In this document: positions 3 through 62,711 of the stretch, piece by piece
Position numbering within the stretch: the first letter of the stretch is position 1
Layout: each line of letters begins with the position of its first letter
Assembly (NCBI RefSeq): GCF_017498525.1
Contig: NZ_CP071796.1
Coordinates: forward strand, 558,001-622,000
Length of the DNA: 64,000 nucleotides
Direction: 5' to 3'
From: Ottowia testudinis
Lineage (GTDB): Bacteria; Pseudomonadota; Gammaproteobacteria; Burkholderiales; Burkholderiaceae_C
Position numbers and translations under genes: made by a program
The notes under the pieces: generated by a model
Seen by the model: only the letters and a program-made list of their open reading frames with translations
Told to the model about the DNA's origin: nothing
The model's database searches: none

Positions 3-1079
3 ACCTGCGCCGAAGGCTGCGAGCAGCTGGCCGCGATGCCCGACGTGATCGGCGACATCGTGGGCCTGAAGCAGCAGCCCAGCGGCATCCGCGTGGGGCA
101 GATGCGGGTGCCGATCGGCGTGTTCGGCATGATCTACGAGAGCCGGCCCAATGTGACGATCGAGGCGGCCAGCCTGAGCATCAAGAGCGGCAACGCCTGC
201 ATCCTGCGCGGCGGCAGCGAGGCGATTGAATCGAACAAGGCGCTGGCGGCGCTGGTGCAGCAGGCACTGGAATCGGCCGGGCTGCCGCGCGAGGCGATGC
301 AGCTGGTGCCCACCACCGACCGCGCCGCCGTGGGCCAGCTCATCGCCATGCCGGATTTCGTCGACGTCATCATCCCGCGCGGTGGCAAGGGGCTGATCGA
401 GCGCATCAGCGCCGAGGCGAAAGTGCCCGTCATCAAGCACCTGGACGGCAACTGCCACACCTATGTGGACGACCCGTGCGACCTCGACATGGCGGTGAAG
501 GTGGTGGACAACGCCAAGACGCAAAAGTACAGCCCCTGCAACGCCACCGAGAGCCTGCTGGTGGCGCGCGGCGTGGCGGCGCGGTTCTTGCCGCGCATCG
601 GCGCCGTGCTGGCGGCCAAGGGCGTCGAGTTGCGCTGTGATCCCGAGAGCGCTGAGATTTTCAAGAAGAATGAGCCTCTAGCGCTTGATGGGCAAGCGCA
701 GGCAGCTATTAAAAACGTAGTAAACGTGGTGCCGGCGCAAGAGCAGGATTGGTACGAGGAATACCTCGCGCCCATCCTCAGTATCAAGGTGGTGGCGGGC
801 GTGGAAGAGGCTATTGAGCACATCAACCGCTATTCCAGCCACCACACCGACGCCATCCTGACCACCGACCACGGGCATGCGCAGCGCTTTCTGCGCGAGG
901 TGGATTCGGCCAGTGTGATGGTCAACGCCAGCACGCGCTTTGCCGACGGCTTCGAGTACGGGCTGGGCGCGGAGATCGGCATCAGCACGGACAAGTTTCA
1001 TGCGCGCGGGCCGGTGGGGATCGAGGGGTTGACGTCGTTGAAGTGGGTGGTGTTGGGGGGGGGAGAGGTGCGCGGCTGA
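3..1079 (+). CDS. proA: Gamma-glutamyl phosphate reductase, 5'-truncated
   Basis: NADPH-dependent reduction of glutamyl-5-phosphate to glutamate semialdehyde, second step of proline synthesis in the cytoplasm. The frame is open from the window edge, so only about 358 C-terminal residues of an enzyme normally near 420 aa are present. The YESRPNVT motif (codons near 138-161) and the active-site cysteine in [10 protein letters not shown] (Cys codon 537-539) are typical of ProA. Oddity: between the catalytic domain and the C-terminal part, codons near 676-717 are an R1 repeat read in frame (peptide [12 protein letters not shown]), an insertion not expected in the family. The protein continues normally after it, so the gene is probably functional. 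Confidence 0.95.
676..717 (-). repeat. R1 palindromic element inside proA
   Basis: Reverse-orientation copy of the R1 family, with hairpin arms GCGCTTG and CAAGCGC around a short loop, followed by AGCTATTAAAA. It is read through in frame by proA and adds about 14 residues. Confidence 0.8.
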
Positions 1080-1472
1080 GTCTCGTTGGGCGGCTGCTGG
1101 GCTGGATGCGCGGCTGGCCGGGATGTGCGCCCGGCGGCGCAGTCACTTTCTTTTGCTCCGCCAAAAGAAAGTAACCAAAGAAAAGGCGGCCCCGCTGGCC
1201 GTGTCCCTCCGCTTCGCTGCGGGCAACCTGCGATGCTCGCGCGTGGGGCGGCGCTGCGGAACTCGCTTCGCGGCTGCGCCGCTCCGCTCAAACAACCGCA
1301 GCGAGTCAGTGCACGAAGCCGGCATGCTGCGCTGCCGGCCCGCCCCACGCCCTGCGCTTCTCGGCACGGCCAGAGGGGGGGTGAAAGCCCACTCGGGCCA
1401 TCGCTGCGCTCGGCCCTCGGACTGTTTCTCGACACCCATACGCCCGGGGCTGCGCAGCAAGCCCCTTCCCAT
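1080..1472. other. Non-coding GC-rich spacer after proA
   Basis: About 390 bases between the proA stop and the R2 repeat. No frame in it resembles a protein. It starts with a perfect hairpin (1145-1172) followed by AACCAAAGAAAAGGCGG, then a GC-rich stretch with many short palindromes such as CGCTTCGC and CTGCGCTGCCGG. I remember similar hairpin-led blocks as interspersed non-coding repeats in betaproteobacteria, but this was not searched. Confidence 0.5.
1145..1172. repeat. Perfect 11-bp hairpin, ACTTTCTTTTG type
   Basis: ACTTTCTTTTG (1145-1155), a 6-base loop CTCCGC, then CAAAAGAAAGT (1162-1172). There is no T-tract after it on the + strand, so it is not a classic intrinsic terminator. Confidence 0.75.
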
Positions 1473-1573
1473 GGCCGCGGAGCAGGCCATTCACGGCCGC
1501 GCGAGCCGGGGTCCCCCCGGCCACCAGCGTTGTCCCCCTGGGGGGATGGCGGCCGCAGGCCGACTCAGGGGGG
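1473..1573 (-). repeat. R2 stop-anchored GC-rich repeat
   Basis: About 100 bp beginning immediately after the leftward trkA stop codon. Read on the minus strand it runs CCCCCCTGAGTCGG, a GCCTGCGGC palindrome, a CCCCCAGGGGG palindrome, ACAACGC, a GGCCGGGG / CCCCGGC pair, then GGCCTGCTCCGCGGCC. Related copies lie at 35858, 36713 (partial), 38317, 45806 and 54770. Confidence 0.75.
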
Positions 1574-6697: not shown

Positions 6698-6718
6698 GGG
6701 GTGTCATCTGCCGCGATC

Positions 6719-6785
6719 GCTATACTAACGATAGCTGTTCGCGCTGATTGGGCAAGCGTTGGAGCCTGTTTATGGTCGGCTTGGA
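6719..6785 (+). repeat. R1 palindromic element, intergenic
   Basis: Forward copy between gshA and kup: GCTAT leader, ATAGCTGTTCGCGCT, GGCAAGCGTT, then the GGAGCC-TTT tail ending near TTGG. Confidence 0.8.
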
Positions 6786-8862: not shown

Positions 8863-8924
8863 TTGAACCAAAAAGGCCGCTCGCGCTTTTCCATCAAGCG
8901 CGAGCAGCTATCAATATTGAAGCA
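8863..8924 (-). repeat. R1 palindromic element, intergenic
   Basis: Reverse copy between kup and the Lrp-type regulator, one of the cleanest: TTGAACCAAAAAGGCCGC tail, CGCGCTTTTCCATCAAGCG hairpin, then GAGCAGCTATCAATATTGAAGC. It lies between two convergent genes. Confidence 0.85.
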
Positions 8925-8942
8925 TTCACGGCGGTGACCGCC

Positions 8943-13274: not shown

Positions 13275-13310
13275 GCCTGGGTCGGCCCATGCCGATGGGG
13301 ATGTAAAAAC

Positions 13311-13400
13311 AATAGCTGCCTGCGCTTGTTCCTAAGGGTTTCAGGTGGATATCCAGGTGAAGTCTTTATCTGGCAAGCGCAGGCAGCTCATAAACAAATA
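13311..13400. repeat. Paired R1 half-elements forming a long inverted repeat
   Basis: AGCTGCCTGCGCTTG at 13314-13328 and its exact reverse complement at 13374-13388 enclose 45 bases, flanked by AAAAACAAT and ATAAACAAATAGC. It looks like an R1 element with extra sequence in the loop, or two head-to-head halves. It lies directly upstream of gshB. Confidence 0.75.
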
Positions 13401-13427
13401 GCAGCTACTTGTGCCACATTACGCGCC

Positions 13428-17757: not shown

Positions 17758-17822
17758 TCAGATCAAATCGGCCGCGAGTCGTGACGAATCAAGCGCAAGC
17801 AGCTATCGAAATAATAGTATCC
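17758..17822 (-). repeat. R1 palindromic element, intergenic
   Basis: Reverse copy between pssA and the MFS gene: TTCAGATCAAATCGGCCGCG tail, AATCAAGCGCAAGCAGCTAT core, TCGAAATAATAGTATCC end. Confidence 0.8.
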
Positions 17823-19573: not shown

Positions 19574-19670
19574 TTGAACGCAAAGGGCGCAAAGATCACG
19601 CAGAAGCCGCAAAAGATTCATCAAGAAACCTTTGCGACTTTTGCGAAACCTCTGCGCCCTTTGCGTTCAA
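19574..19670. repeat. Long imperfect hairpin with perfect 18-bp ends
   Basis: TTGAACGCAAAGGGCGCA (19574-19591) is the exact reverse complement of TGCGCCCTTTGCGTTCAA (19653-19670). The interior adds a second short pair, CGCAAAAG against CTTTTGCG, so the 97 bases could fold into one long stem. It lies between convergent genes (MFS transporter and yafJ-type gene) and is unlike R1 and R2. Confidence 0.8.
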
Positions 19671-19690: not shown

Positions 19691-19757
19691 ATTTCAAGCC
19701 AAATCGGCCCTCGCCGCTTGCATATCAAGCGCAAGCAGCTATCAAATCAGGAGTATC
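19691..19757 (-). repeat. R1 palindromic element, intergenic
   Basis: Reverse copy ending seven bases from the amidotransferase stop codon: ATTTCAAGCCAAATCGGCCC tail, ATCAAGCGCAAGCAGCTATC core. Confidence 0.8.
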
Positions 19758-21256: not shown

Positions 21257-21261
21257 CATGG

Positions 21262-21318
21262 TCATTTCGGCCGCTTACGTTGTTCAGACAAGCGCAAGCA
21301 GCTATCAATACCGAAGCA
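21262..21318 (-). repeat. R1 palindromic element, intergenic
   Basis: Reverse copy between the terminator and the malate synthase stop codon: CATTTCGGCCGC tail, GACAAGCGCAAGCAGCTATC core, AATACCGAAGC end. Confidence 0.75.
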
Positions 21319-21320
21319 AA

Positions 21321-25650: not shown

Positions 25651-25652
25651 TA

Positions 25653-25716
25653 GCTATATAAAACATAGCTGTTCGCGCTTGTTGAGTGGGCGCTAGGGGC
25701 CGTTTTTAGCTTGAAG
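25653..25716 (+). repeat. R1 palindromic element, intergenic
   Basis: Near-complete forward copy directly after the CoA-transferase stop: GCTATATAAAACATAGCTG, TTCGCGCTTGTT, GGGCGCTAGGGGCCG, TTTTTAGCTTGAAG. It reaches the stop codon of the convergent membrane-protein gene. Confidence 0.85.
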
Positions 25717-28072: not shown

Positions 28073-29623
28073 GTGAACGCGCCGGCGCTGCCGGACACCC
28101 GCCGCCCGGGCGCGGCGGTCACCGTGGCCGTGGCCTTGTTTGCCGCGCTGTGGTGGGCGGTGCTGCTGCTGACGCAGCGCACGCCGCCGATCGACAACGT
28201 GGAGCAATGGGTGTGGTCGCACGGTCTGGCCTGGGGCTACTACAAGCACCCGCCGCTGCCCAGCTGGATCGCCGCCGCCGCCCAAGCCGTGCTGGGGCGC
28301 GCGCCGTGGGTGATCGACCTGCTGGGTGCCGCCTGCGGCGTGGTCACCTTCGTCATCTTCTGGCGCCTGCTGCGGCGCATGCGCGGAGCCGCCTTTGCCA
28401 CGCTGGCGCTGCTGGCGGTGTTGTGCCTGACGTATTCGACCCAGCGGCTCAACTATTTCAACCACAACACGGTGCTGATGCCGCTGGCGGCGGCGGTGAT
28501 CGCCCTGAGCTGGCGCGTGACGCTGCGCCCGTCGCGCTGGACCTGGGGCGCCATTGGTGCGCTCCTGGGCCTGGGGCTGCTGGCCAAGTACCAGATGGTG
28601 CTGGTGGTGGTGTGCGTGACGTTGTGGTGGCTGCGCATCGGCGGCTGGCGCGGCGCCGAGCATCGATGGGGTGCGCTGCTGGGCGGCGCGGCGGCGCTGG
28701 CGGTGTTCGTGCCGCATCTGGTGTGGCTGGTGCAGTCCGGCTGGGTGCCGCTGAACTACGCGCGCGCCAGCGCGCTGGGCGCTCACCTGCCGTGGGGTGC
28801 GCGCCCGGTGCACGTCTTCCACTGGATGGCCGACTGGTTCGGCAACCGGCTGATGCCCGCCTGGGTGCTGTTGGCGATCGCCTCGTGGGCCTTGGCGCGC
28901 ATGCCCGCCGATGCGCCGGCCAGCGCGCCCGGCCACCCCGGCGCGGCGCTGTCGCGGCCGTTTTTGCTGCTGTGGGGCCTGGGGCCGCTGCTTCTGATGA
29001 TGGCGATGTCGCTGGCCACCGGTTCGCGCCTGCCGTTCAAGTGGAGCACCAGCTTCGCGCTTTGGACGGTGCCGGCCGTGATGGCCTGCCTGCCGCTGGC
29101 GGCGGCGCTGGCGCGCGTGCGCGCGCTGCCCTGGCCCGTGGGCGCGGGCTTCGCGGCGCTGCAGCTCATGCTGCTGGTGGCGATGCAGCATGGCGCGCAC
29201 CAGCCGACCCCGATCGGGCCGTCGAAGAAGGCGCGTGAATGGCGGCAGCGCGATTTCGCGCCGGCCGCACGCGTGCTGGACGCGCAGGCGCGCGCCGAGC
29301 TGGGCGGCCCGGCCCAGATCATCAGCGGCGCCTACGGGGTGGCTGGCGCCTTGGCGCAGCAGCTGCCCGGCCATCCGCTGGTGCTCATCGACGGCGACCT
29401 GGGCAAAAGCCCCTGGCTGCGCGCCGACGACCTGCGCGATGCGCGCGTGATGTGGGTCGAGCCCGCCTGCGGCGTGCCCGCGGGCGCGCAGGCCCTGATG
29501 CCTGGCTGGATCGTCTGGCCGCTGCCGCCGGGCGCGGTGCTGCAGGGCCGCGCACCCACCGACCCGCGGCGCTGGCACCAGGCGATGGCTCAGGGTGGCG
29601 TTTCGATCAGGGCCTGCCCATGA
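28073..29623 (+). CDS. ArnT/PMT-type membrane glycosyltransferase (GT-C)
   Basis: 516 aa from a GTG at 28073 (an alternative GTG lies at 28061, overlapping the previous gene). Multi-pass membrane protein of the GT39/GT83-like GT-C fold: an acidic residue in the first periplasmic loop (PPIDNVEQWVWSHGLAWGYY, followed by KHPPLPSWI) and about 10-12 helices, then a soluble periplasmic tail (from about 370). Such enzymes use polyprenyl-phosphate sugars as donors and modify lipid A, glycans or proteins. It overlaps the deacetylase gene by 4 bases (ATGA). Confidence 0.8.
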   Translation: MNAPALPDTRRPGAAVTVAVALFAALWWAVLLLTQRTPPIDNVEQWVWSHGLAWGYYKHPPLPSWIAAAAQAVLGRAPWVIDLLGAACGVVTFVIFWRLLRRMRGAAFATLALLAVLCLTYSTQRLNYFNHNTVLMPLAAAVIALSWRVTLRPSRWTWGAIGALLGLGLLAKYQMVLVVVCVTLWWLRIGGWRGAEHRWGALLGGAAALAVFVPHLVWLVQSGWVPLNYARASALGAHLPWGARPVHVFHWMADWFGNRLMPAWVLLAIASWALARMPADAPASAPGHPGAALSRPFLLLWGLGPLLLMMAMSLATGSRLPFKWSTSFALWTVPAVMACLPLAAALARVRALPWPVGAGFAALQLMLLVAMQHGAHQPTPIGPSKKAREWRQRDFAPAARVLDAQARAELGGPAQIISGAYGVAGALAQQLPGHPLVLIDGDLGKSPWLRADDLRDARVMWVEPACGVPAGAQALMPGWIVWPLPPGAVLQGRAPTDPRRWHQAMAQGGVSIRACP

Positions 29624-30450
29624 GCGCGGCCAAATCGCTGGTGCTGTGCGCCGACGACTACGCCGCCGATGAAGGCGTCACCCGCGGCGTGCTGGCGCTG
29701 GCGCGCCGCGGGCGGCTGACGGCCACCAGCGCCATGGTGCTGTCGCCGCGCTGGCGCGAAGACGCGGCGCCGCTGCGCGAATGGCGCGCGCAGTGCGACG
29801 TCGGCCTGCATTTGGACTTCACCAGCGATTTCGCGCGCGCGCAGGGGCACGGCCTGCCCTTGGGCGCGGCCATGCGGCGCGCGCTGCTGGGCGGTTTCGA
29901 TCAAGCGGCGGCGCGCGAGGTGATCGAGCGCCAGCTCGACGCCTTCGAGGCCGCCTGGGGCGCGCCGCCAGACCATGTGGACGGCCACCAGCACGTTCAG
30001 CAATTCAACGGCATCCGCCAGCCGCTGGTGGCGGCCCTGGCGCGCCGCTACGGGCCGCGCGCACCCTGGCTGCGCGTGTCGCGCGGAGCGCCGGGGCAGC
30101 ACGGCCTGAAAACCCGTGTGATCGCGTGGCTCGGCGCGGATGCTATTGAAAAAATAGCTGCTTGCGCTTGTCTGGCAAGCGCGGAGTGGTTGTCAGGCAT
30201 ATATGACTTCAGCGGCGGCGAGGCCGTCTACGCCGAGCGCATGGCGCGTTGGCTGGCCGCCGCGCCCAGCGGCACGGTGCTGATGTGCCATCCGGCCGAT
30301 CCGGCGGCAGGCTCGCAAGACAACGACCCCATCGCGGCAGCGCGCCACTGGGAATTCAACCACTTGAGCGGCCCAGGCTTTGCGGCGCAGTGCGCGGCGG
30401 CCGGCGTTCATCTTGTCAAGGGCAGCGCGCTCTACGTTGCAAATTCGTGA
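29620..30450 (+). CDS. YdjC/ChbG/HpnK-family carbohydrate deacetylase, NaxD-like
   Basis: 276 aa starting MSAAKSLVLCADDYAADEG. Metal ligands and catalytic residues of the YdjC family are visible: ADD near residue 12, HLDFTSD, DHVDGHQHVQ and LMCHPAD. In Francisella NaxD and Bordetella LgmC, homologues deacetylate polyprenyl-phosphate N-acetyl-hexosamine before an ArnT-type enzyme moves it to lipid A; the flanking ArnT-type genes suggest the same here. An R1 element is inserted in frame (peptide AIEKIAACACLAS, about residues 175-187), between the conserved blocks. Four-base overlaps on both sides (ATGA, GTGA) show tight coupling. Confidence 0.83.
   Translation: MSAAKSLVLCADDYAADEGVTRGVLALARRGRLTATSAMVLSPRWREDAAPLREWRAQCDVGLHLDFTSDFARAQGHGLPLGAAMRRALLGGFDQAAAREVIERQLDAFEAAWGAPPDHVDGHQHVQQFNGIRQPLVAALARRYGPRAPWLRVSRGAPGQHGLKTRVIAWLGADAIEKIAACACLASAEWLSGIYDFSGGEAVYAERMARWLAAAPSGTVLMCHPADPAAGSQDNDPIAAARHWEFNHLSGPGFAAQCAAAGVHLVKGSALYVANS
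30142..30205 (+). repeat. R1 palindromic element inside the YdjC-type gene
   Basis: Forward copy: GCTATTGAAAAAATAGCTG, CTTGCGCTTG, TCTGG, CAAGCGCGG. Read in frame, adding about 20 residues between the VSRGAPGQHG and YDFSGGEAVYAERM blocks. Confidence 0.85.
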
Positions 30451-32054
30451 CCAAGCTTTCTTCAGATTCCGTGCACGCCGCCGAAGGGCGGCCGCGCCGC
30501 CTCGGCTGGGTGCTGGCCGCCTTCGTGCTGCTGCTGGCCGTGCTGGCGGCGCTGCGCCCGCTGTCGGTGCCTGACGAAGGGCGCTACGCCGAAGTCAGCC
30601 GCTGGATGCTGGTGTCGGGCGACTGGCTGATTCCGCGCCTGAACGGGTTGCCGTTTTTCCACAAGCCGCCGCTCACGCACTGGCTGCAGGCGGCCAGCAT
30701 GGCGGTGTTTGGCGTCAGCCCCTGGGCCGCGCGGCTGCCGCAGATCGCGCTGGCGGTGTTGATGCTGGCCGGCCTGCATGCCGCAGCCCGGCGTCTGGCG
30801 GACGATGCGTTGGCCGCGCGCGCGGCGATCATCCTGGCGGCCAGCGGCGGCTGGCTCATTGGCGGCCAGTACGTCAACCACGATCTGGGCGTGGCCACCT
30901 GGATCGCCACCACCATCTGGTGCTTCGCGCTGGCGCTGCAGGGCGAGCGGCCGCGCGCCGGCTGGGCGTATGCGGGCTTTGCCGCCAGCGCGCTGGGCCT
31001 GCTGACCAAGGGGCTGATCGGCGTGGCCTTGCCGGGCCTGGTGCTGCTGTTGTGGGTCGGCTGGACGCGCCGCTGGCGCGCCGCCTGGCGGCTGCCGTGG
31101 CTTGGCGGCGTGCTGCTGTCCGGGCTGATCGCCGTGCCCTGGTTCGTGCTGGCCGGCCAGCGCTATCCGGACATGTGGGGTTATCTGTTTGGCGTGCAGC
31201 AGTTCACGCGCTACACCGGCAGCGGCTTCAACAACCCGCAGCCGGTGTGGTTCTACCCGGTGGCGCTGCTGTTGCTGTTGTTTCCGTGGGCATTTTGGGC
31301 ATGCTATGAGGCGCTGGCGCAGGCCAGGAAAGCGCGGCCAGCTATTGTTTCAAGAGTAAGCGGGCTGGTGCCCCTGTGCTGGATCTGGCTGGGCGCCATC
31401 GTGCTGTTCTTTTCGATCCCGCGCTCCAAGCTGATCGGCTACATCCTGCCCGTGCTGCCGCCGCTGGCGGTGCTGGCCGCGCTGGGCTGGCAGCGCGCCA
31501 TGGGCGGGCGCCGGCACGCCGGGCGCTGGTTCGCCGGCATGGCGGCGCTGGCGGCGCTGCTCACGGCGGTGCTGTCCGTGGCGCTTCCGGGCATCCAGCG
31601 CGAGCGGCTGTCCGGGGATGTCGCCCGCGTGCTGGCGTGCCGGGCCAGCCCGGGCGACACGGTGCTGGTGTTGGGCGGCTACCCGTTCGAGCTGCCTTTT
31701 GTCGCCCAGACGCACCAGCCGCTGGTGGTGGTGCAAGATTGGCCGTTGGTGCGTATCGAGGCGGGCGACAGCTGGCGGCGCGAGCTGTTCGAAGCGGGCG
31801 ACTTCGAACCCGCGCTGGCCGAGCGGCTGCTGCGCACGCCCGAGTTGCTGGAGACGGCGGCGCGGCAGCCCGGCCAGTGGCTGGTCGAGCGCGTGCACGA
31901 CGAGCCATCGCCGCCCGTTCCGCCCACCTGGCAGCCGGTGACCGAGGGGCGCGGCTGGCGGTTGTACCGCTCAGCGCCGGAACGCCCAGAACCGGCTCAG
32001 CACAAAGGTCTGCCCGGCTGCCACGATCAGCGCGGCGATCAGCGCCGGCCATGA
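30447..32054 (+). CDS. ArnT-like lipid A / glycan glycosyltransferase
   Basis: 535 aa from the GTG at 30447. Closer to true ArnT than the GT-C gene upstream: the periplasmic loop reads VPDEGRYAEVSRWM with the DE-x-RYA acidic motif and then FFHKPPLTHWL, and LLTKGLIGVALPGLV is also typical. ArnT moves an amino sugar from undecaprenyl phosphate to lipid A phosphates. A degenerate R1 copy (31315-31357) sits in frame between helices. The last 28 codons run antisense into gtrA (84-base convergent overlap), so the natural C-terminus may have been lost by erosion of the spacer. Confidence 0.84.
   Translation: MTKLSSDSVHAAEGRPRRLGWVLAAFVLLLAVLAALRPLSVPDEGRYAEVSRWMLVSGDWLIPRLNGLPFFHKPPLTHWLQAASMAVFGVSPWAARLPQIALAVLMLAGLHAAARRLADDALAARAAIILAASGGWLIGGQYVNHDLGVATWIATTIWCFALALQGERPRAGWAYAGFAASALGLLTKGLIGVALPGLVLLLWVGWTRRWRAAWRLPWLGGVLLSGLIAVPWFVLAGQRYPDMWGYLFGVQQFTRYTGSGFNNPQPVWFYPVALLLLLFPWAFWACYEALAQARKARPAIVSRVSGLVPLCWIWLGAIVLFFSIPRSKLIGYILPVLPPLAVLAALGWQRAMGGRRHAGRWFAGMAALAALLTAVLSVALPGIQRERLSGDVARVLACRASPGDTVLVLGGYPFELPFVAQTHQPLVVVQDWPLVRIEAGDSWRRELFEAGDFEPALAERLLRTPELLETAARQPGQWLVERVHDEPSPPVPPTWQPVTEGRGWRLYRSAPERPEPAQHKGLPGCHDQRGDQRRP
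31315..31357 (-). repeat. Degenerate R1 element inside the ArnT-like gene
   Basis: CAGGAAAGCGCGGCCAGCTA then TTGTTTCAAGAGTA resembles the reverse R1 core (AAGCGCGAGCAGCTAT). The AT-rich GCTATTGTTTCA stands out from its GC-rich frame. The match is partial. Confidence 0.45.
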
Positions 32055-33362: not shown

Positions 33363-35036
33363 ATGCAATCCGTGAAGAACGAACTGCTCGCCGCCCTGGC
33401 GGCCGAGCTTGAAAAAATCGCGCCCGGTGCCGGCGGCAAGGCCGCCTTCGAGTCGCCCAAGCAAGCCGCGCACGGCGATCTGGCGGTGACCGCCGCCATG
33501 CAGCTGGCCAAGCCGCTCAAGAGCAACCCGCGCGCGCTGGGCGAGCAGCTCAAGGCGGCGCTCGAGGCCGCGCCGGCTTTTCAGCAATGGGTGGATGCCA
33601 TTGAGCTGGCTGGCCCGGGCTTTCTCAACATCCGCCTGAAGCCCGCCGCCAAGCAGCAGGTGGTGCGCGAGGTGCTATCAAAAAAAGAGCTATTTGGGCA
33701 ATCTGGACAAGCGCCAGGCCGTGTTTTGGTGGAGTTCGTATCGGCCAACCCGACCGGTCCGTTGCACGTCGGTCACGGGCGCCAAGCGGCGCTGGGCGAC
33801 GCCATTTGCAAGCTGTTCGCCACCCAGGGCTGGCAGGTGCATCGCGAGTTCTATTACAACGACGCCGGCGTGCAGATCGAAACGCTGGCCCACTCGGTGC
33901 AGCTGCGCGCCAAGGGGCTGAAGCCGGGCGGCGAGGGCTGGCCCGACGCGGCCTACAACGGCGACTACATCGCGGACATCGCGGCCGATTTCATGGCGAA
34001 AAAGACCGTGCAGGCCGACGGCCGCGGCTTGACCGCCAGCGGCGACGTGAACGACCGGGACGGCATCCGCCAATTTGCCGTCGCCTACCTGCGCCACGAA
34101 CAGGACAAGGATCTGCAAGCCTTCCGGCTGGCCTTTGACGAGTACTACCTCGAGTCGAGTCTCTACACCAGCGGCCGCGTCGATGCAACGGTGCAAAAGC
34201 TGATCGACGCTGGCAAGACCTACGAGGAGGGCGGCGCGCTGTGGCTGCGCACCACCGACTACGGCGACGACAAGGACCGCGTCATGCGCAAGCAGGACGG
34301 CGGCTATACCTATTTCGTGCCCGACGTGGCCTATCACATCAGCAAGTGGGAGCGCGGCTACACCAAGGTCGTCAACATCCAGGGCACCGACCACCACGGC
34401 ACCATTGCCCGCGTGCGCGCCGGCCTGCAGGCGGCGGGCGTCGGCATTCCCAAAGGTTATCCCGACTACGTGCTGCACACCATGGTGCGCGTGATGAAGG
34501 GCGGCGAAGAGGTCAAGATCAGCAAGCGCGCCGGCAGCTACGTCACGCTGCGCGATCTGATCGAGTGGACCAGCGCCGATGCGGTGCGCTTTTTTCTGCT
34601 CAGCCGCAAGCCAGACACCGAATACACCTTCGACGTCGACCTGGCGGTGCAAAAGAACAACGACAACCCGGTGTATTACGTGCAGTACGCGCACGCCCGC
34701 ATCTGCTCGGTGCTCGACGCCTGGGGCGGCGACGTGGCGGCACTCGCCGATGCCGATCTGGCGCCGCTCGACACCCCGGCCGCGCAGGCGCTGATGCTGC
34801 AGCTGGCCAAGTATCCCGAGATGCTCACCGCCGCCGCGCAGGACTTTGCCCCGCACGACGTCAGCTTCTATCTGCGCGAGCTGGCCGCCAGCTACCACAG
34901 CTATTACGACGCCGAGCGCATCCTGGTGGACGACGAAACGGTGAAAAAAGCCCGTCTGGCGCTGGTCGCCGCCACCGCCCAGGTGTTGCACAATGGCCTG
35001 CTGGTGCTGGGCGTGTCGGCCCCGACCCGGATGTAA
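33363..35036 (+). CDS. argS: Arginyl-tRNA synthetase
   Basis: Essential enzyme charging tRNA-Arg. 557 aa, class I. The N-terminal additional domain (about 1-105) is followed by [13 protein letters not shown] (HIGH motif as HVGH), ITTT-type regions, [28 protein letters not shown] (KMSK-like) and a C-terminal anticodon-binding helical domain. Oddity: between the N-terminal domain and the catalytic core an R1 repeat (33673-33730) encodes [17 protein letters not shown] in frame. It is the first gene of argS - SPOR - dsbA, an order conserved in Burkholderiales. Confidence 0.96.
33673..33730 (+). repeat. R1 palindromic element inside argS
   Basis: Forward, somewhat diverged copy: GCTATCAAAAAAAGAGCTAT, TTGGGCAATCTGG, ACAAGCGCCAGGCCG, TGTTTTGG. 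It runs in frame in the essential argS gene just before the HIGH-motif block. Confidence 0.75.
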
Positions 35037-35857: not shown

Positions 35858-35959
35858 TCCCCCCTGTGGCGCTGCGCGCCTTCCCCCCCGGATGGGGGAC
35901 AACGCCAGTGGCCGGGCCAAGCCCGGCCACTGGCGTTCCCGGCTGGCCTGCTCCGCGGC
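35858..35959 (+). repeat. R2 stop-anchored GC-rich repeat
   Basis: Starts at the base after the SPOR gene's TGA: TCCCCCCTGTGGCG, CTGCGCGCC, CCCCCCCGG, GACAACGCCAGTGGCCGGGC, the GCCCGGCCAC return arm, and GGCCTGCTCCGCGG. Confidence 0.75.
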
Positions 35960-36076
35960 TCTTTCTGGGCTTGCTGCGCAGCCCGATGTGCAAATTCGTC
36001 ACGGGGGGAGCGCGGCTTGCGGAACTACGTGCGCGCGTACGGCCTCTGAGAATGGTTACAACGGAGTCTTGAGAAC

Positions 36077-38443: not shown

Positions 38444-40024
38444 GTGAAACCGGGGCTGTCTCTCCGCGTCTCGCAGCATTTGGCGCTCACGCCGCAACTG
38501 CAGCAGTCGATTCGGCTGCTGCAACTGTCCACGCTCGAGCTGGCAAGCGAGGTCGAGCAGATGCTCGACGACAACCCCTTTCTGGAGCGCGGCGACGACA
38601 GCGCGCCGCGCGAGGAATTCGGCCTGACACGTGCCGACGCGCGCGTCAGCGACGGCGATCGAATTCAAGAGACTGCTACAGAAAACGAAGCTGCTGGCGA
38701 TGATTCCACAAGCGCTGAATCCGGTTTTGATGCTGAATCCTCCGTGCCCGACAGCTGGGAGGGCGATGGCAGCGTCGAACTGCGGCCCGACGACGGTGAA
38801 TGGGGCGGCGATGCCCCGGCCCGCGCCAACAATCTGGGCGACGACGACGAACTCGACCCCGGCGAGCGTGGCGGCGGCCAGGAGTCGCTGGCCGAGCACC
38901 TGAGCCGCCAGGCCTTGTCGCTGCGCCTGTCGCCCGAGGACACGGCGGCACTGCGCTTTCTGATCGAATCGCTGAACGACGATGGCTACCTTGAGGACTC
39001 GCTGGCCCAGCTTGCCGCCACGCTGACCGATACCGACGACGACCTGGAGCATCTGGAGGAGCTGGTGCATCGATTCACGATGGCCTTGAAGCTGCTGCAA
39101 TCGCTGGAGCCGGCGGGCGTGGGCGCGCGCCACCTCGCCGAGTGCCTGGCGCTGCAGCTGAAAAGCCGCCAGGCCGAGCGCGATGTGGGGGCCGATGAGC
39201 GGGCCGACATCGCCGTCGCGCTGAAAATTTGCGCGCAGCACGGGGCTGTCGACCTGCTGGCCCGGCGCGACGCCAAGCGCCTGGCGCAGCTCACATGCGA
39301 AAGCGAAGCCGCGGTGCGCGGCGCCATGGCGCGCATTGGCCGGCTCGACCCCAAGCCGGGCCGCCAGTTTGCCGACGTCGAGCGCAATGCCATCGTGCCC
39401 GACGTCATCGTCTCCAGCGCCGGCGGTGGCGGTCAAGCGCGCTTTCGCGTGCAGCTCAACCCCGACGTCATGCCCAAGTTGCGCGTGCACGACGTCTATG
39501 CCAACGCACTGCGGGGCGGCAAGGGCGGAGACAACCACCAGGCGCTCGCCCAGCGCTTGCAGGAGGCGCGCTGGTTCATCAAGAACATCCAGCAGCGCTT
39601 CGACACCATCTTGCGCGTGTCGCAGGCCATCGTCGCGCGGCAGAGCAATTTTTTCATCCATGGCGAGGTGGCGATGCGGCCCATGGTGCAGCGCGAGCTG
39701 GCCGACGAACTGGGCGTGCACGAATCCACCATCAGCCGCGTGACGACCGCCAAGTACATGGCCACGCCGCGCGGCACTTTCGAGCTGAAATATTTCTTCG
39801 GTTCGGCGCTTGGCACCGAAGCCGGCGGCAACGCCAGCAGCACGGCGGTGCGCGCGCTCATCAAGCAGCTGATCGCCGCCGAAGACCCGGCCAAGCCGCT
39901 GTCCGACAGCCAACTCGCCGAGATGCTGAAAGAGCAGGGCATCGACTGCGCGCGCCGCACGGTGGCCAAATACCGCGAAGGCCTGCGCATCCCGGTGGCG
40001 ACCCTGCGCAAAATCGTCGCCTGA
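38444..40024 (+). CDS. rpoN: RNA polymerase sigma-54 factor
   Basis: 526 aa from a GTG start (MKPGLSLRVSQHLALTPQLQ). Region I is Gln/Leu-rich (QQSIRLLQLSTLELASEVEQ); region II is a long acidic linker (about 50-145); region III contains the core-binding part, the HTH (ELGVHESTISRVTTAKYM) and the RpoN box ARRTVAKYRE near the end. Linker residues about 77-98 (ATENEAAGDDSTSAESGFDA) are a degenerate R1 element in frame. Location after lptB is conserved, but the usual hpf gene is not downstream. Confidence 0.95.
   Translation: MKPGLSLRVSQHLALTPQLQQSIRLLQLSTLELASEVEQMLDDNPFLERGDDSAPREEFGLTRADARVSDGDRIQETATENEAAGDDSTSAESGFDAESSVPDSWEGDGSVELRPDDGEWGGDAPARANNLGDDDELDPGERGGGQESLAEHLSRQALSLRLSPEDTAALRFLIESLNDDGYLEDSLAQLAATLTDTDDDLEHLEELVHRFTMALKLLQSLEPAGVGARHLAECLALQLKSRQAERDVGADERADIAVALKICAQHGAVDLLARRDAKRLAQLTCESEAAVRGAMARIGRLDPKPGRQFADVERNAIVPDVIVSSAGGGGQARFRVQLNPDVMPKLRVHDVYANALRGGKGGDNHQALAQRLQEARWFIKNIQQRFDTILRVSQAIVARQSNFFIHGEVAMRPMVQRELADELGVHESTISRVTTAKYMATPRGTFELKYFFGSALGTEAGGNASSTAVRALIKQLIAAEDPAKPLSDSQLAEMLKEQGIDCARRTVAKYREGLRIPVATLRKIVA
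38674..38736 (+). repeat. Degenerate R1 element inside rpoN
   Basis: GCTACAGAAAACGAAGCTGC, TGGCGATGATTCC, ACAAGCGCTGAATCCGG, TTTTGATGCTGAA follows the R1 layout with substitutions in the left hairpin arm. It encodes part of the acidic region II linker, the most variable part of sigma-54. Confidence 0.55.
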
Positions 40025-42923: not shown

Positions 42924-44246
42924 ATGACACCCCTGACCCTGTTTTTGCCCTGCGCCGCCGGCGTGGAGGGCTACCTCGCCGACGAAGTGCACGGGCTCAC
43001 CGGGCTGGCCGGTGACGATCTGCTCACCGTGCGCGGCGGCGTGCGCGTGCGCGGCGACTGGGCACTGGTCATGCGCCTGAACCTGCACAGCCGCCTGGCG
43101 CAGCGCGTGCTGATCGAACTGGCTCACGGCCCCTACGGTGACGAACACGATTTGTACGCTTTGGCCGCCAGCGTGGCGTGGGAAGACTGGTTCAGCCCGC
43201 GCCAGACCTTCCGCGTCGACGTCACCGCGCAGGCCAGCCCGCTCAAGAGCCTGAACTTCGCCACCCTGCGCGTCAAGGACGCCGTGGCCGACCGTTTCCG
43301 CGAGCGCGCCGGCGGCGTGCGGCCCAGCATCGACACCCGCGCGCCCGACGTGCGCGTGCAGGCCCATCTGGGCCCCGCCGAAGCCACGCTTTACATCGAC
43401 ACCAGCGGCGAGCCGCTGTTCAAGCGTGGCTGGCGCCAGGACAAGGGCGACGCGCCGCTGAAGGAAACCCTGGCCGCCGCCATGCTCGCCGCCAGCGGTT
43501 GGTGGCAGCCGGCCGAGCGGCGGGTGAGCGATCTGCCCCTGTACGACCCGTGCTGCGGCAGCGGCACCATCGTCATCGAAGCGGCGCAGCTGCGCTTGGG
43601 GCTGCCCGCCGGCGGCCAGCGGCGCTTTGCCTTCGAGCGCCTCAAGCCGTTGGACCCCGCGCGGTGGAATGCTATCAAAACAGAAGCTGCTCGCGCTTAT
43701 CGGACGGGCGCTACGGGCCAATTTGATTCAAAGGATGCCACGATTCACGTATTCGGCAGCGACGTCGCGCACCGCATGGTTGACTTCGCGCAGCGCAACG
43801 CCGAGCGCGCCGGCGTCGCCCACGCGGTGCAACTGCGCGGCGGCGACGCGCTGCAGCGCATGCCGCCCACCGTGCGGCCCGGCGTGCTGCTGATGAACCC
43901 ACCGTATGGCGAACGCATTGCCGCCGCGGGCGTGGCGGGGGTGCGTGCGGGCGGGCGCGAAGCGTTTCAAAGCGGCCCGCTGGGGCGGGCGCGCGACGCG
44001 GCGCCGGACGATGCGAACGCCGGCGATGAATTTTTCGCCCGCCTGGCCGCGCACTGGAAGGGCCACTACGCCGGCTGGGCGGCCTGGTTGCTCACGCCAG
44101 ATCTGAAACTGCCGGGCCGGCTGCGCCTGAAGGAATCGCGCCGCGTGCCGCTGTGGAACGGGCCGATCGAATGCCGCTTGTTCCGCTTCGATCTGACCGC
44201 CAGGCAACGCGGCGATTCAGAGCCCAAAACGCCCCCCAGCGCTTGA
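42924..44246 (+). CDS. rlmL: THUMP-domain 23S rRNA (guanine-N2) methyltransferase, RlmL N-half type
   Basis: 440 aa from the ATG at 42924 (a GTG at 42888 is an alternative). N-terminal ferredoxin-like/THUMP region (about 1-160), then a Rossmann methyltransferase with YDPCCGSGTIVIEAA (motif I) and the catalytic MNPPYGERI. It corresponds to the RlmL half of E. coli RlmKL, methylating G2445 of 23S rRNA; the RlmK half is absent, as in many betaproteobacteria. An R1 element is inserted in frame (NAIKTEAARAYRTGATGQ, 43671-43733) between motif I and the catalytic motif. Confidence 0.87.
   Translation: MTPLTLFLPCAAGVEGYLADEVHGLTGLAGDDLLTVRGGVRVRGDWALVMRLNLHSRLAQRVLIELAHGPYGDEHDLYALAASVAWEDWFSPRQTFRVDVTAQASPLKSLNFATLRVKDAVADRFRERAGGVRPSIDTRAPDVRVQAHLGPAEATLYIDTSGEPLFKRGWRQDKGDAPLKETLAAAMLAASGWWQPAERRVSDLPLYDPCCGSGTIVIEAAQLRLGLPAGGQRRFAFERLKPLDPARWNAIKTEAARAYRTGATGQFDSKDATIHVFGSDVAHRMVDFAQRNAERAGVAHAVQLRGGDALQRMPPTVRPGVLLMNPPYGERIAAAGVAGVRAGGREAFQSGPLGRARDAAPDDANAGDEFFARLAAHWKGHYAGWAAWLLTPDLKLPGRLRLKESRRVPLWNGPIECRLFRFDLTARQRGDSEPKTPPSA
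43671..43733 (+). repeat. R1 palindromic element inside rlmL
   Basis: Almost full-length forward copy: GCTATCAAAACAGAAGCTG, CTCGCGCTTATCGG, ACGGGCGCTACGGGCC, AATTTGATTCAAA. It is read in frame in the methyltransferase domain. Confidence 0.88.
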
Positions 44247-44280
44247 TGGACAAGCGCGAGAAGCTCCTGATTGAATAGCA
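44222..44280 (-). repeat. R1 element at the rlmL end / PIN gene start
   Basis: Reverse copy: GCCCAAAACGCCCCCC tail, AGCGCTTGATGGACAAGCGC hairpin, GAGAAGCTCCTGATTGAATAG end. It provides the last codons and TGA of rlmL (TGA at 44244-44246) and ends just before the PIN gene. Confidence 0.8.
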
Positions 44281-44282
44281 AC

Positions 44283-45805: not shown

Positions 45806-45907
45806 GGCCGCGGAGCAGGCCATGCCAAAACGCCGTGGCCGGGGTCCCCCCGGCCACTGGCGTTGTCCCCCTGGGGGGAAGGCGCCGCAGGCGACTCAGG
45901 GGGGACG
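45806..45907 (-). repeat. R2 stop-anchored GC-rich repeat inside the liv operon
   Basis: Starts directly after the livH stop, read on the minus strand: GTCCCCCCTGAGTCGCCTG, CGGCGCCTTCCCCCC, AGGGGGACAACGCCAGTG, GGCCGGGGGGACCCCGGCC, GGCCTGCTCCGCGGCC. It lies between livH and livM within one presumed transcript. Confidence 0.8.
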
Positions 45908-49579: not shown

Positions 49580-49720
49580 GCGGCTCGTCGTGCCTTGAAG
49601 GGGGAAAACGGGCGGATTATGCGTGACGCACCGCAGCAGACCGATAGGGGTTTTTACCCGGCGAAACCGCATCGGCACGCCGTCAGGGAGAACCCGGGCG
49701 CAATGCCGTGTTTTTGGGTC

Positions 49721-49777
49721 TTTTGGCCGCTCGCGATTGCGGGACAAGCGCGAGCGGCTATCAAATTAATAGTTATC
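49721..49777 (-). repeat. R1 element at the 3' end of the FMN-binding protein gene
   Basis: Reverse copy: TTTTGGCCGCTCGCG, GACAAGCGCGAGCGGCTATC, AAATTAATAGTTATC. Its AT-rich end supplies the last codons and TAA stop of the leftward gene (stop at 49766-49768). Confidence 0.8.
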
Positions 49778-51685: not shown

Positions 51686-51784
51686 GCGAGAGACCTTGCA
51701 AGGGAGCGGGCCCGAGCCTATCACCCAAGCATTTCATCCACGAAAGCGCTATTGAATGAGTAGTGATTTGCGTTCGCCCAGTAA

Positions 51785-51849
51785 GGATTTCAGGGCCATT
51801 TGTCTTGAAGACTGGGTGTATCAAGCGCGAGCAGCTATTCTTTTAACAG
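51785..51849 (-). repeat. R1 palindromic element, intergenic
   Basis: Reverse copy: GATTTCAGGGCCATTTG tail, GTATCAAGCGCGAGCAGCTA core, TTCTTTTAACAG end, upstream of the solute-binding protein gene. A shorter R1-like fragment (AAAGCGCTATTGAATGAG) lies at about 51745. Confidence 0.8.
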
Positions 51850-51944
51850 TGAGGCCAAAAATGTCAGGGACTTCCCTGTGCCGCCGCGCCATGGGCGGCT
51901 TGCATACTTCCGGGTTCTTACATTTGAAGAGGGAAGATCCCATG

Positions 51945-53536: not shown

Positions 53537-54058
53537 TCAGCCGCTTTGCAGCCAGTCATGCAGGTAGTGCAGCGCATGCGCCACCGTTTGCGCGCGCACG
53601 GCGGTGCGGTCGCCATCAAAGCGCTGGTGCTCGGTGTGCGTCTGGTCGCCCACGCACCAACCGAACCACACGGTGCCCACCGGCTTGTCTTCGCTCCCCC
53701 CGGCCGGCCCGGCAATGCCAGTGACGGCGATGCTGACCTGGGCGGCTGAGTGCGTCACGGCCCCCGCGGCCATGGCGCGCGCCACCGGCTCGCTGACCGC
53801 GCCGTGCCGTGCGATCAGCGCGGCTGGCACGCCCAGCAGCTCGGTCTTGGCGGCATTGCTGTAGGTGACGAATCCGCGCTCGAACCAGTCGGACGAGCCC
53901 GCCAGATCGGTGCAGGCGGCGGCGATCATGCCGCCGGTGCAGCTCTCTGCCGTGGCCAGCCACCAGCCGCGCTGGCGCAGCACGGCCGCCAGTTTTTGAA
54001 CGATTTCGGCCTCTGGCGCTTTTGTGGCAAGCGCGAGAAGCTCTTCATTTAATAGCAT
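53537..54058 (-). CDS. pncC: Nicotinamide-nucleotide amidohydrolase, CinA C-terminal type
   Basis: 173 aa. Deamidates NMN to NaMN in pyridine nucleotide recycling. CinA C-terminal domain motifs LATAESCTGGMIAA, VTYSNAAKTELLGV, GAVSEPVARAMA and VTGIAGPAGGSEDKPVGTVW. The first 22 codons (MLLNEELLALATKAPEAE) lie inside an R1 element, which supplies the ATG. It sits 6 bases after pgpA in the pgpA-pncC part of the usual thiL-pgpA-cinA order. Confidence 0.92.
   Translation of the reverse strand: MLLNEELLALATKAPEAEIVQKLAAVLRQRGWWLATAESCTGGMIAAACTDLAGSSDWFERGFVTYSNAAKTELLGVPAALIARHGAVSEPVARAMAAGAVTHSAAQVSIAVTGIAGPAGGSEDKPVGTVWFGWCVGDQTHTEHQRFDGDRTAVRAQTVAHALHYLHDWLQSG
53996..54057 (-). repeat. R1 element forming the 5' end of pncC
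   Basis: Reverse copy: TTGAACGATTTCGGCCTC tail, GGCGCTTTTGTGGCAAGCGC hairpin, GAGAAGCTCTTCATTTAATAGC end, so the start codon ATG (54056-54058) is at its outer edge. Confidence 0.85.
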
Positions 54059-57932: not shown

Positions 57933-57951
57933 GATGGCTTCTCCTTTGAAG

Positions 57952-59136: not shown

Positions 59137-59144
59137 GGCAGGAG

Positions 59145-59385
59145 GGTTTCAGGCGAAGTGATCCAAGGCGCGCGCTGTCAGCGGCGCTGCCGTCGGCGCC
59201 TGCCAGGCGCAGGCCGGGTGCTGTCCCGGTGGACGCGAGAGATTTGGCGCCGAAGACCAGATCGTAATCGTCACCACCGGTGAGTGCAGCGTGCACAAGT
59301 CCTTGGTGGCAAATAGGCCATCAGCGCTTGCCATTCAAGCGCGAGAAGCTATTAAAAAAGAAGCGATTTCGGCCTCGGTGATGGC
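59145..59385 (-). pseudogene. thiL: thiL 3'-end fragment
   Basis: On the minus strand the stretch encodes, with frameshifts, pieces that match the end of the intact thiL at 61692-62711: LTGGDDYDLVF against LTGGDDYELVF, GLRLAGADGSAA against GLRLIDARGRAT, and ARALDHFA against ARAFDHFA. An internal deletion removed most of the segment between the first two blocks, and an R1 copy sits at the same relative place as in intact thiL. The fragment is a decayed duplicate and, with thiL, flanks the GH42-like gene in direct orientation. Confidence 0.8.
59310..59369 (-). repeat. R1 element in the thiL fragment
   Basis: Reverse copy: AAATAGGCCATC tail, AGCGCTTGCCATTCAAGCGC hairpin, GAGAAGCTATTAAAAAAGAAGC end. 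Its position relative to the LTGGDDYDLVF block matches the R1 copy inside intact thiL. Confidence 0.82.
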
Positions 59386-59533
59386 GTGATGCCCTCTTTA
59401 GGTGCTCTTGTCTCATCCAGCCCGGCACGGCACGGCACGGCGCGATGGCAGCTTGGCGCGTTGCCGTTGCGGGCGCAGGCCATCGCGCGAAGACGCCGCC
59501 CGAATGCATGGTTGGTCCCCGTGTAATGCGGGC

Positions 59534-61423: not shown

Positions 61424-61600
61424 CACGAGGGATGTCAGGGGAAAAGTCAAAGGACATTGTTAGCGCGCGTTGGCGAATGCCTGTGGGAGTATCAGCCAAA
61501 GAACCGTGCCGGCTTCGACAAAGCCAACCCGTGTTCATGTCATTTCATGGAGTATCGATGGTGCGCGGCGGCGAAGGCGAGTCAGGTGCTGTTTCTGACT

Positions 61601-61691
61601 GAACGGCGCCCAGCCCCCGGCGACGGTCGCGTGGTCGACGAACAGCACGCCGCTGCCGATGTCGCGGGCCATGGCTTTGCCGCGTTGGGTT
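61601..61691 (-). pseudogene. Possible aldehyde dehydrogenase remnant
   Basis: A short minus-strand frame, QRGKAMARDIGSGVLFVDH, resembles the segment before the C-terminal strand of succinate-semialdehyde dehydrogenases (RG-x3-A-x2-I-x2-G-x-x-F-[VI]-[ND]-H). No flanking ALDH sequence is present. The call rests on one short block. Confidence 0.3.
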
Positions 61692-62711
61692 TCAGGCGAA
61701 GTGATCGAAGGCGCGCGCCGCGAATGGCGTCGCGCGGCCGCGGGCGTCGATGAGGCGCAGGCCGGAAGCTTCCTCAATGCGTCCGATGCGCGTGACGCAG
61801 GCGGCGGCGCGCTTGCCGGCCGCTTGCACGGCGGCGCGGACAGAGGGTGGGGCGGTGAAGACGAGTTCGTAGTCGTCGCCGCCGGTAAGCGTGAGTTTGA
61901 GTAGAAATTCTTTATCGAATGAGTCGCTGGCGCTTGATGGGCCAGCGCAAAACGCTATCAAATGAAAAGCATCCTTGCTGTCGATGGCGGCCCCGGCATT
62001 GCTCGCCTTGAGGATGTGCCCGAGATCGCCCGTCAGCCCATCACTGATGTCGGCCGCCGCGCTGGCGATGCCGCGCAGGGCCTGGCCCAGCGTCAGGCGC
62101 GGCGTGGGGCGCTCCAGCCGCTGGCGTGCGCTGGCCAGCACATCGGGCGGCAGCGTCCATTCGCCGCGCAGCGCGCCCAGCGCCAGCCGCGCATCGCCCA
62201 GCGTGCCGCTGACCCACACATCGTCGCCGACCTGCGCGCCGTCGCGCCGCAGCGCTTGACCGGCGGGCACCTGGCCGAACACGGTGATGCAGATGTTGAG
62301 CGGGCCGGCCGTGGTGTCGCCGCCGATCAGCGCGCAGCCGTGCGCGTCGGCCAGCGCGAACAGGCCGTGCGCGAAGGCGCCCAGCCAGCCTTCATCACGC
62401 GCGCGCTCGGGCGGCAAGGCCAGTGCCAGGGTGAAGGCCAGCGGCTCGGCGCCCATCGCGGCCAGGTCGCTCAGGTTGACGGCCAGCGCCTTGTGGCCGA
62501 GCGCGGCGGGGTCGACGTCGGCGAAGAAGTGGCGGCCTTCGACCAGCATGTCGGTGCTGACGGCCAGTTGCATGCCGGGCGCGGGCCGCAGCAGCGCGCA
62601 GTCGTCGCCGATGCCGAGGACTACTGAATTGATAGCTGGTTGCGCTTGTCCATCAAGCGTTGGGGGCTGATTTCGCTTGAAGAAGCGCTCGATCAGCTCG
62701 AATTCGCCCAT
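61692..62711 (-). CDS. thiL: Thiamine-monophosphate kinase
   Basis: 339 aa. Makes thiamine diphosphate from ThMP and ATP. AIRS-like fold: MGEFELIERFF start, GIGDDCALLRPAPGMQLAVS (metal-binding acidic residues), KALAVNLSDLAAMGAEPLAF, IGGDTTAGPLNI, ADISDGLTGDLGHI and LTGGDDYELVF. Two R1 elements are inserted in frame: PPTLDGQAQPAINS at about residues 15-28, just before the GIGDD motif, and LIAFCAGPSSASDSF at about 248-262, which explains its being longer than usual. It is separated from pgpA-pncC by about 7 kb. Confidence 0.94.
   Translation of the reverse strand: MGEFELIERFFKRNQPPTLDGQAQPAINSVVLGIGDDCALLRPAPGMQLAVSTDMLVEGRHFFADVDPAALGHKALAVNLSDLAAMGAEPLAFTLALALPPERARDEGWLGAFAHGLFALADAHGCALIGGDTTAGPLNICITVFGQVPAGQALRRDGAQVGDDVWVSGTLGDARLALGALRGEWTLPPDVLASARQRLERPTPRLTLGQALRGIASAAADISDGLTGDLGHILKASNAGAAIDSKDAFHLIAFCAGPSSASDSFDKEFLLKLTLTGGDDYELVFTAPPSVRAAVQAAGKRAAACVTRIGRIEEASGLRLIDARGRATPFAARAFDHFA
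61912..61971 (-). repeat. R1 element inside thiL, C-terminal part
   Basis: Reverse copy: TTATCGAATGAGTCG, CTGGCGCTTGATGGGCCAGC hairpin, GCAAAACGCTATCAAATG end; in frame between ISDGLTGDLGHI and LTGGDDYELVF. Confidence 0.82.
62621..62682 (+). repeat. R1 element inside thiL, N-terminal part
   Basis: Forward copy on the + strand (antisense to thiL): GAATTGATAGCTGGT, TGCGCTTGTCCATCAAGCG hairpin, TTGGGGGCTGATTTCGCTTG tail. In the gene it encodes PPTLDGQAQPAI, nearly the peptide found at the proA insertion ([11 protein letters not shown]). Confidence 0.85.

Follow-up and report, generated by a model that had tools for sequence, protein, structure and literature searches.

The window analysed here, a stretch of 64,000 nt of the Ottowia testudinis genome (assembly GCF_017498525.1, contig NZ_CP071796.1, positions 558,001 to 622,000), contains copies of R1, a dispersed double palindrome of 61–66 nt, several of which lie inside housekeeping genes and are read in frame. 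The evidence supports a repeat resembling the Rickettsia palindromic elements (RPEs), and R1 is probably a non-autonomous dispersed palindromic DNA element whose in-gene peptides are tolerated by-products and not adaptations. It is old in one family of Burkholderiales and abundant in the clade of this genome.

A preliminary description of the window had placed R1 copies inside proA, a YdjC-type gene, argS, rlmL, pncC and thiL (twice), with weaker ones in rpoN and an ArnT-like gene. The copies in proA, the YdjC-type gene, rlmL, pncC and thiL (both) are confirmed, scoring 56–64 bits with a covariance model and 51–71 bits with an R1 matrix (proA 71, YdjC 51, rlmL 58, thiL 64 and 52, pncC 71). The covariance model was built from 16 sequences that include all six of these copies, and the matrix, derived from 71 copies classed as intergenic, serves as its cross-check, except that the gene caller classed the pncC copy as intergenic, which makes the matrix score for pncC non-independent. 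The ArnT and rpoN stretches lay outside the training set of the model; their likeness to R1 is weak, and their status as insertions is unsupported. For argS the claim fell: the model does not list the stretch at E 0.1 in 353 kb, the matrix gives 26.6 bits and the residues align without added length. The stretches in genes of the window are as follows.

663–723, minus strand: R1 in proA (reading frame open at 3–1079, plus strand, its 5' part beyond the window), 62.9 bits.
30140–30200, plus strand: R1 in the YdjC-type gene 29620–30450, plus strand (Pfam YdjC), 56.4 bits; comparable relatives are all R1-rich.
31299–31359, minus strand: weak R1-like stretch in the ArnT/PMT-like gene 30447–32054, plus strand, 35.1 bits, E 1.7e-5.
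33672–33732, plus strand: stretch in argS claimed as R1, not an insertion.
38673–38733, plus strand: stretch of rpoN with borderline likeness to R1, lying between the AID domain and the core-binding domain, 24.3 bits, E 0.007.
43669–43729, plus strand: R1 in rlmL (42924–44246, plus strand), 58.2 bits.
44221–44281, minus strand: R1 over the 3' end of rlmL, containing the stop codon at 44246, 63.8 bits.
53998–54058, minus strand: R1 at the possible start of pncC (53537–54058, minus strand), supplying an ATG and 20 codons, 60.6 bits.
61912–61972, minus strand: R1 at site 2 of thiL, before GGDDYEL, 56.0 bits.
62618–62678, plus strand: R1 at site 1 of thiL, after ERFFKR (gene on the minus strand), 64.4 bits.

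Across 71 intergenic copies, the aligned family is gap-poor and its commonest base per position gives TTGCTATTAATTTGATAGCTGCTCGCGCTTGCCGGACAAGCGCTAGAGGCCGATTTGACTT; the consensus folds into two hairpins at -18.3 kcal/mol. The left end is sharp, and information in the flanks carries the right end about 5 nt past the covariance model, hence the range of 61–66 nt. No stem covariation was detected in these copies, the pairs being invariant or no better than shuffles. End tags were likewise not supported, with GTAG, CTAC, CGTC and GACG occurring within 8 nt of the element in 6, 12, 8 and 11, respectively, of 70 intergenic copies. When the window was searched against Rfam at E 0.5, the sole match did not fall on any R1 copy.

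The distribution of R1 between genes and the remaining DNA was assessed in the window plus an even sample of 400 kb (20 evenly spaced 20-kb stretches of the genome, a single contig of 4,320,685 bases), where 127 copies were kept in 464 kb, or about one per 3.7 kb. Before counting, 24 of the 133 rows of the sample were dropped (all those above E 0.0032, together with two below it, one on the opposite strand and one a half element), as were six rows in the window (composites and half elements), the rpoN stretch, at E 0.007, being retained. A home-made gene caller (coding fraction 84%) places 87 copies between genes, 10 at gene edges and 30 wholly in called genes. Per base, R1 is therefore about 17 times rarer in called genes (30 copies in ~390 kb) than outside (97 in ~74 kb), and non-genic copies lie near gene 3' ends, at a median of 17 nt, compared with 54.5 nt to 5' ends. 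The frame is intact in every gene named in the preliminary description, as had been claimed, although a copy in a called gene is read through by construction, and those that break genes elsewhere would count as intergenic. Ten of the 30 in-gene hosts were checked, and all carry an NCBIfam name: EarP, family-4 uracil-DNA glycosylase (UDG), MnmC, DapF, PurK, ComEC, PcnB, YgiQ, MetH and NadD.

With the matrix, coding sequence yields 33 matches of at least 8 bits, of which 30 reach 25 bits and 27 reach 30 bits; in synonymous shuffles of the same genes, in which the R1 peptides were kept, the figures are 10.3, 1.8 and 0.5. No coding matches were found in the R1-poor congeners G012 and G004 (about 28 kb of coding DNA past the filter in each).

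The in-gene copies are read mostly in two frames, same-strand frame 2 (13 of 30) and opposite-strand frame 0 (10 of 30). The null expectation was taken from openness in intergenic copies: among 68 of these with at least 40 bits, same-strand frames 0, 1 and 2 are open in 7, 30 and 35, and the corresponding opposite-strand frames in 41, 17 and 39. The two preferred frames, expected to account for 45%, are used by 17 of 20 copies with at least 40 bits (p=2.7e-4) and by 23 of 29 overall (p=1.7e-4), a set from which one of two like RHS copies was dropped. Two other frames, same-strand 1 and opposite-strand 2, are open about as often but hardly used in genes, so that avoidance of stop codons accounts for only part of the filter. 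The nature of the R1 peptide seems to matter to which copies stay in genes, and a target phase tied to orientation could also be the source of the frame preference. Separately, two R1-like stretches in L321 (12510–12570 and 15620–15680) encode an identical peptide, in a third frame, in long presumed RHS-type proteins.

The nearly identical peptide LDGQAQ-A/P-AI, pointed out earlier in ProA and ThiL, is real and represents what R1 most often encodes when read on the opposite strand. It recurs in unrelated proteins, namely ProA, ThiL (KRNQPPTLDGQAQPAINSVVL), MnmC (QKKPALALDHQARAAINLKAN) and DapF (KPNQPSALDSQAQEAIVNVAV), while a second R1 peptide is common to UDG (EAINSIAVRADSESASGQIDS) and EarP (IAPEFIASRACSSSARGSFDL).

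The clearest case of insertion is ProA, which at R1 has 19 more residues than the proteins of 9 out of 11 other families of the order (16 and 20 more than the remaining two), and the Thermotoga maritima structure 1o20 skips ProA residues 209–227. R1 scores 47–71 bits in all eight R1-rich genomes with a scorable site, O. testudinis included, whereas in six of six R1-poor congeners the site shows no likeness to R1 and is 7–14 residues shorter; G007 and G001 reach 18 bits at full length. An exact element-sized insertion is clear for ProA only, among the window genes and the others, and the lengths added at in-gene R1 copies span 0 to about 25 residues. The earlier proposal would have been refuted by distant Burkholderiales with the same residues and no nucleotide similarity to R1. 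This did not happen: other families of the order mostly lack the residues, and the insert that many genera share at ThiL site 2 still matches R1 as DNA in 41 of 80 loci at E 0.1.

The remaining genes of the window depart from ProA in different ways. In RlmL the insert is partial (8–11 residues more than in 7 of 11 other families, 2–21 relative to the others), with R1 likeness in some congeners only. The R1 copy at pncC offers an ATG and 20 codons, which may be an R1-derived start, a later start being possible at 53983, and copies occur at this site in seven of nine other R1-rich congeners and in G001. ArgS shows zero added length wherever the whole site is comparable, and its matrix score of 27 bits drops to 3 in the sister genome G018 and 9 in G015. 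A conversion tract in argS was considered and rejected: with G018 as one of the two references, changes specific to O. testudinis number 3 in the 61 nt as against 10–11 in 120 flanking bases, and with references that leave G018 out they number 8 as against 13 in the flanks, which is no burst. The RpoN stretch is 0 to 6 nt longer than in relatives, and the ArnT-like gene is 9 and 12 nt shorter at its stretch than in G017 and G011; at neither was an insertion seen in comparison with the relatives available. YdjC has little or no added length relative to its available relatives, all of which are R1-rich.

ThiL carries two copies, and both sites add residues relative to most other families. Site 1 is longer by 8–12 residues than in 7 of 12 families (4 or less for the rest) and by 12 than in structure 3mcq, and site 2 is longer by 7–8 than in 9 of 12 families and by 7 than in 3mcq; four of six R1-poor congeners have a site 2 of about this length that shows no likeness to R1. 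ThiL was modelled with AlphaFold2 from 38 sequences (mean pLDDT 86.5); blocks of ten residues score 57–67 at site 1 and 56–72 at site 2 (86 at its edge), while the others score at least 85 save two chain ends. The R1 copy at site 2 is common to many genera of Comamonadaceae. Among the best 80 of 567 thiL loci, from Acidovorax, Polaromonas, Rhodoferax, Simplicispira and others, the R1 model matches site 2 in 41 at E 0.1 (28 at 0.001), site 1 in 2 and the flanks in 7; one of the six peptide patterns used to fetch these loci overlapped site 2.

The DNA of the site-2 insert differs from its surroundings, with a GC content of 0.38–0.50, compared with 0.67–0.73 for thiL (16 sequences), and its codons are unusual. 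Ile 252 is encoded by ATA in 39 of the 39 sequences with the insert and Ile at this position (39 of 42 over all 81), while the share of ATA elsewhere in ThiL is 26% in the next Ile column, which also belongs to the insert, 22% at best outside it and 4% at the median. The share of TTG/TTA at position 251 (71%, next column 23%) is extreme, as are those of GCT at positions 261, 253, 248, 254 and 256; that of TTT at position 265 (84%, next column 74%) is unexceptional. Over 91 Acidovorax-group pairs, protein identity in the insert is 59%, compared with 90% upstream and 80% downstream. Something seems to keep the DNA core TTGATAGCT of thiL site 2, in a manner that plain decay would not explain. Since common descent inflates the codon counts, maintenance of the core is a strong lead and not a proof.

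The same loop holds, in frame, two unrelated palindromic repeats of 180 and 114 nt, in G017 (L050/L096) and G001 (L054), both with relatives elsewhere in the DNA of congeners. Their presence is the best evidence that the site-2 loop is simply tolerant.

Outside the window, alignments with solved homologues place added residues at R1 in several hosts: MetH, where the homologue is gapped by 17 residues, DapF (23–24), UDG (about 25) and EarP (about 9). PurK stands apart. R1 scores 48–69 bits at this gene in eight of the nine R1-rich genomes scored and 2 bits in G003, and the site scores -37 to 8 bits in R1-poor congeners and -26 or less in other families, relative to which PurK is longer by 0 or 1 residue in 11 of 12 cases, the twelfth being a fragment. 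The PurK copy covers a native helix. The proposal that R1 sites fall between conserved blocks fails for this gene. The related idea that selection retains only in-frame copies located in loops proved too simple: the ThiL copies do lie in low-confidence loops, but two frames dominate and the PurK copy overlies a helix.

Extrapolation from the 109 copies kept in the even sample gives about 1,180 R1 copies in the genome, and a genome-wide search returned at least 150, the lowest among the matches listed scoring 52.9 bits. In 18 congener genomes, with at most 150 candidates scored in each, the counts are zero in G004, G006, G009 and G013, between 1 and 45 in G002, G012, G001, G007 (25) and G005 (45), and at least 109 in the other nine. 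The same search found none in 12 genomes outside the family, each from a different family of the order. With stricter filters, R1 was found in 53 of 150 genomes of the family, representing 47 of 126 genera. In a four-protein tree, read for branching order only, R1-rich genomes cluster with G007, while G005 and the genomes poor in R1 diverge before them.

The intergenic copies of the window and two composite structures are listed below.

6717–6777, plus strand: intergenic R1, 52.3 bits.
8865–8925, minus strand: intergenic R1, the best of the window, 69.3 bits.
17760–17820, minus strand: intergenic R1, 57.9 bits.
19696–19756, minus strand: intergenic R1, 65.3 bits.
21259–21319, minus strand: intergenic R1 at the 3' end of a gene, 58.9 bits.
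25651–25711, plus strand: intergenic R1 between convergent gene ends, 59.5 bits.
49715–49775, minus strand: intergenic R1, 59.1 bits.
59306–59366, minus strand: intergenic R1, 62.2 bits.
63604–63664, minus strand: intergenic R1, 64.5 bits.
13304–13404, no strand assigned: composite of two facing R1 half-elements, one scoring 26.1 bits and the other, on the opposite strand, 20.4 bits.
51748–51852, no strand assigned: second composite of R1 halves, 24.0 bits for 51784–51852.

The paired halves at 13304–13404 and 51748–51852 resemble composite clusters of repetitive extragenic palindromes (REPs).

Transposases associated with REPs (RAYTs) were considered as the mover of R1, and no consistent or convincing link emerged. 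Three of six orthologous RAYT-like genes have R1 at their 3' end, that of G018 carrying it on both sides in inverted orientation, and the remaining three have none nearby; R1 is found at many gene 3' ends anyway. Repeats of GGGGTCAGA, which are not R1, recur around the RAYT-like gene. Both R1-rich and R1-poor genomes have genes for Y1-type transposases; in the R1-rich G016 and G015 no Y1_Tnp match was obtained.

Under the preferred reading, that of a non-autonomous element, R1 would spread into any DNA by means of trans-acting machinery and most in-gene copies would be purged; those that stay would be copies whose length keeps the frame, whose peptide is harmless and which usually fall in a tolerant surface loop. 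Several observations weigh against it. No transposition was caught, as the search for empty sites among congeners gave three weak candidates, none of them clean, and neither target duplication nor terminal inverted repeats were found over 70 intergenic copies, although old copies could have lost the duplication. Individual sites lack R1 where it might be expected: ThiL site 2 in G011 and G015, pncC in G014 and G008, PurK in the R1-rich G003, and ProA in G005, which holds 45 copies and whose loop is nearly full length without likeness to R1. Added length is missing at PurK, where the R1 copy brings no length change relative to 17 of 17 other congeners; at NadD, judged by alignment with PDB structures (0–19 residues shorter than in other families, in a variable region); and at both sites of MnmC, with about 0 added residues relative to Escherichia coli in poorly conserved stretches. 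To these are added the rare codons kept at ThiL site 2.

The codons and the PurK copy, found without length change in eight of nine R1-rich genomes, lend some weight to a different explanation, according to which R1 has a function as a DNA or RNA site and is maintained, also within genes, through selection or conversion from copy to copy, and may there overwrite compatible native codons. ATA at position 252 is retained in 39 of 39 sequences while the protein of the insert drifts (59% identity vs 90%). Against this, the thiL counts are inflated by shared ancestry and one search pattern overlapped the site, TTT at position 265 is unexceptional, R1 lacks stem covariation, argS shows no burst of changes towards R1 in its own lineage, and the PurK copy is old, so that insertion followed by loss of the native stretch is possible. 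We regard this explanation as rather unlikely, and are similarly doubtful of the specific proposal that the R1 core is actively maintained in coding sequence across the family and takes over native codons without length change, as in purK. If this were true, R1 would spread into genes by templated overwriting or work as a DNA or RNA site within essential genes.

A repeat resembling DNA uptake sequences, built up by point mutation in permissive sites together with biased uptake, would account for dispersal near gene ends and in genes, for the preferred frames and for the length-neutral PurK copy. Coding matches are, however, all-or-none, and the fact that only three score between 8 and 25 bits, as against 30 above, argues against gradual build-up; ProA, MetH and DapF bear true insertions; and R1 amounts to 57 bits, known uptake sequences being far shorter. 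Such an origin is very improbable. Hardly more credit can be given to the view that the R1 peptides are of adaptive value at the protein surface, for instance as a tag for docking or solubility: similar peptides do recur in unrelated enzymes, and the ThiL copy persists across genera, but the peptides recur because the DNA repeat itself recurs, the ThiL insert is less conserved than the rest of the protein, and R1-poor congeners manage without the insert at ProA. An ancestral origin of the extra peptides, with a merely fortuitous resemblance to R1, fits argS, and little or no added length is seen in YdjC, ArnT and rpoN relative to available relatives; as a general account it is scarcely tenable, given that the extra residues of ProA, MetH, DapF and UDG have no counterpart in other families or in PDB homologues and are encoded by DNA that the model scores as R1 at 50–63 bits, an ancestral peptide at ProA being already refuted by the absence of 19 residues from 9 of 11 other families.

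With similar peptides in some twenty genes of 464 kb, the clade constitutes a natural insertion library, which may indicate where ProA, ThiL, MetH, DapF and MnmC can accommodate foreign residues. A direct test of selfish versus functional repeats is offered by two observations, the conserved codons of thiL and the purK copy that leaves length unchanged.

Other repeats were also observed in the window. A repeat of about 130 nt occurs at 1445–1573, 45806–45904 and 35859–35984, with more than 30 of the 50 genome matches listed belonging to it and 10 matches in the window plus 400 kb. Another, of about 320 nt, lies at 1098–1417 and has at least 10 further long matches in the genome (78–93% identity). 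The 97-nt palindrome at 19574–19670, whose arms are 83% complementary, has relatives in three of the stretches that make up the 400 kb sample and gives a sub-threshold Rfam match to a microRNA, presumably by chance.

Protein-coding palindromes are best known from Rickettsia. Passages in PMC10969869 and PMC2229807 describe RPEs as palindromic dispersed repeats found in frame inside unrelated housekeeping genes. R1 is like them in being palindromic and dispersed, with in-frame copies in unrelated conserved genes that are absent from orthologues (ProA, ThiL, MetH, DapF and UDG); at argS, PurK and NadD, such absence from orthologues was not found. It is set apart by description, being 61–66 nt long as against about 150 nt for RPEs, residing in a different class of bacteria and being read mostly in two frames, and its taxonomic position suggests that it arose independently of RPEs.

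Similarities extend to other repeat families. REPs of the GTAG/CGTC type, as a section of PMC3733652 presents them, are short palindromes, known from many species, near gene 3' ends, some lying wholly within open reading frames, including those of repair and tRNA-modification genes; R1 shares with them the closeness to 3' ends and the copies inside reading frames, but does not have the GTAG/CGTC end tag. Correia/NEMIS, ERIC/RU-1 and other miniature inverted-repeat transposable elements (MITEs) are non-autonomous and form in-frame gene fusions, according to parts of PMC2229807 and PMC2759123; unlike them, R1 shows neither terminal inverted repeats nor target duplication. One passage of a review (PMC10969869) mentions MITEs in Polaromonas, so that R1 may have been described before; among the papers listed in searches naming Acidovorax, Comamonadaceae, Polaromonas or Ottowia, none described such a repeat there. 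Neisserial and Pasteurellaceae uptake sequences (PMC2346458) number from hundreds to thousands of scattered copies, which inside genes are biased in orientation; R1 differs from them in its all-or-none scores and true insertions. In-frame palindromes in housekeeping genes are thus already known, and R1 is a further family with its own size, taxon, two-frame use and codon behaviour. It brings an RPE-type outcome to genomes of 4 Mb, at about a thousand copies by extrapolation, with congeners that carry few or none as natural controls.

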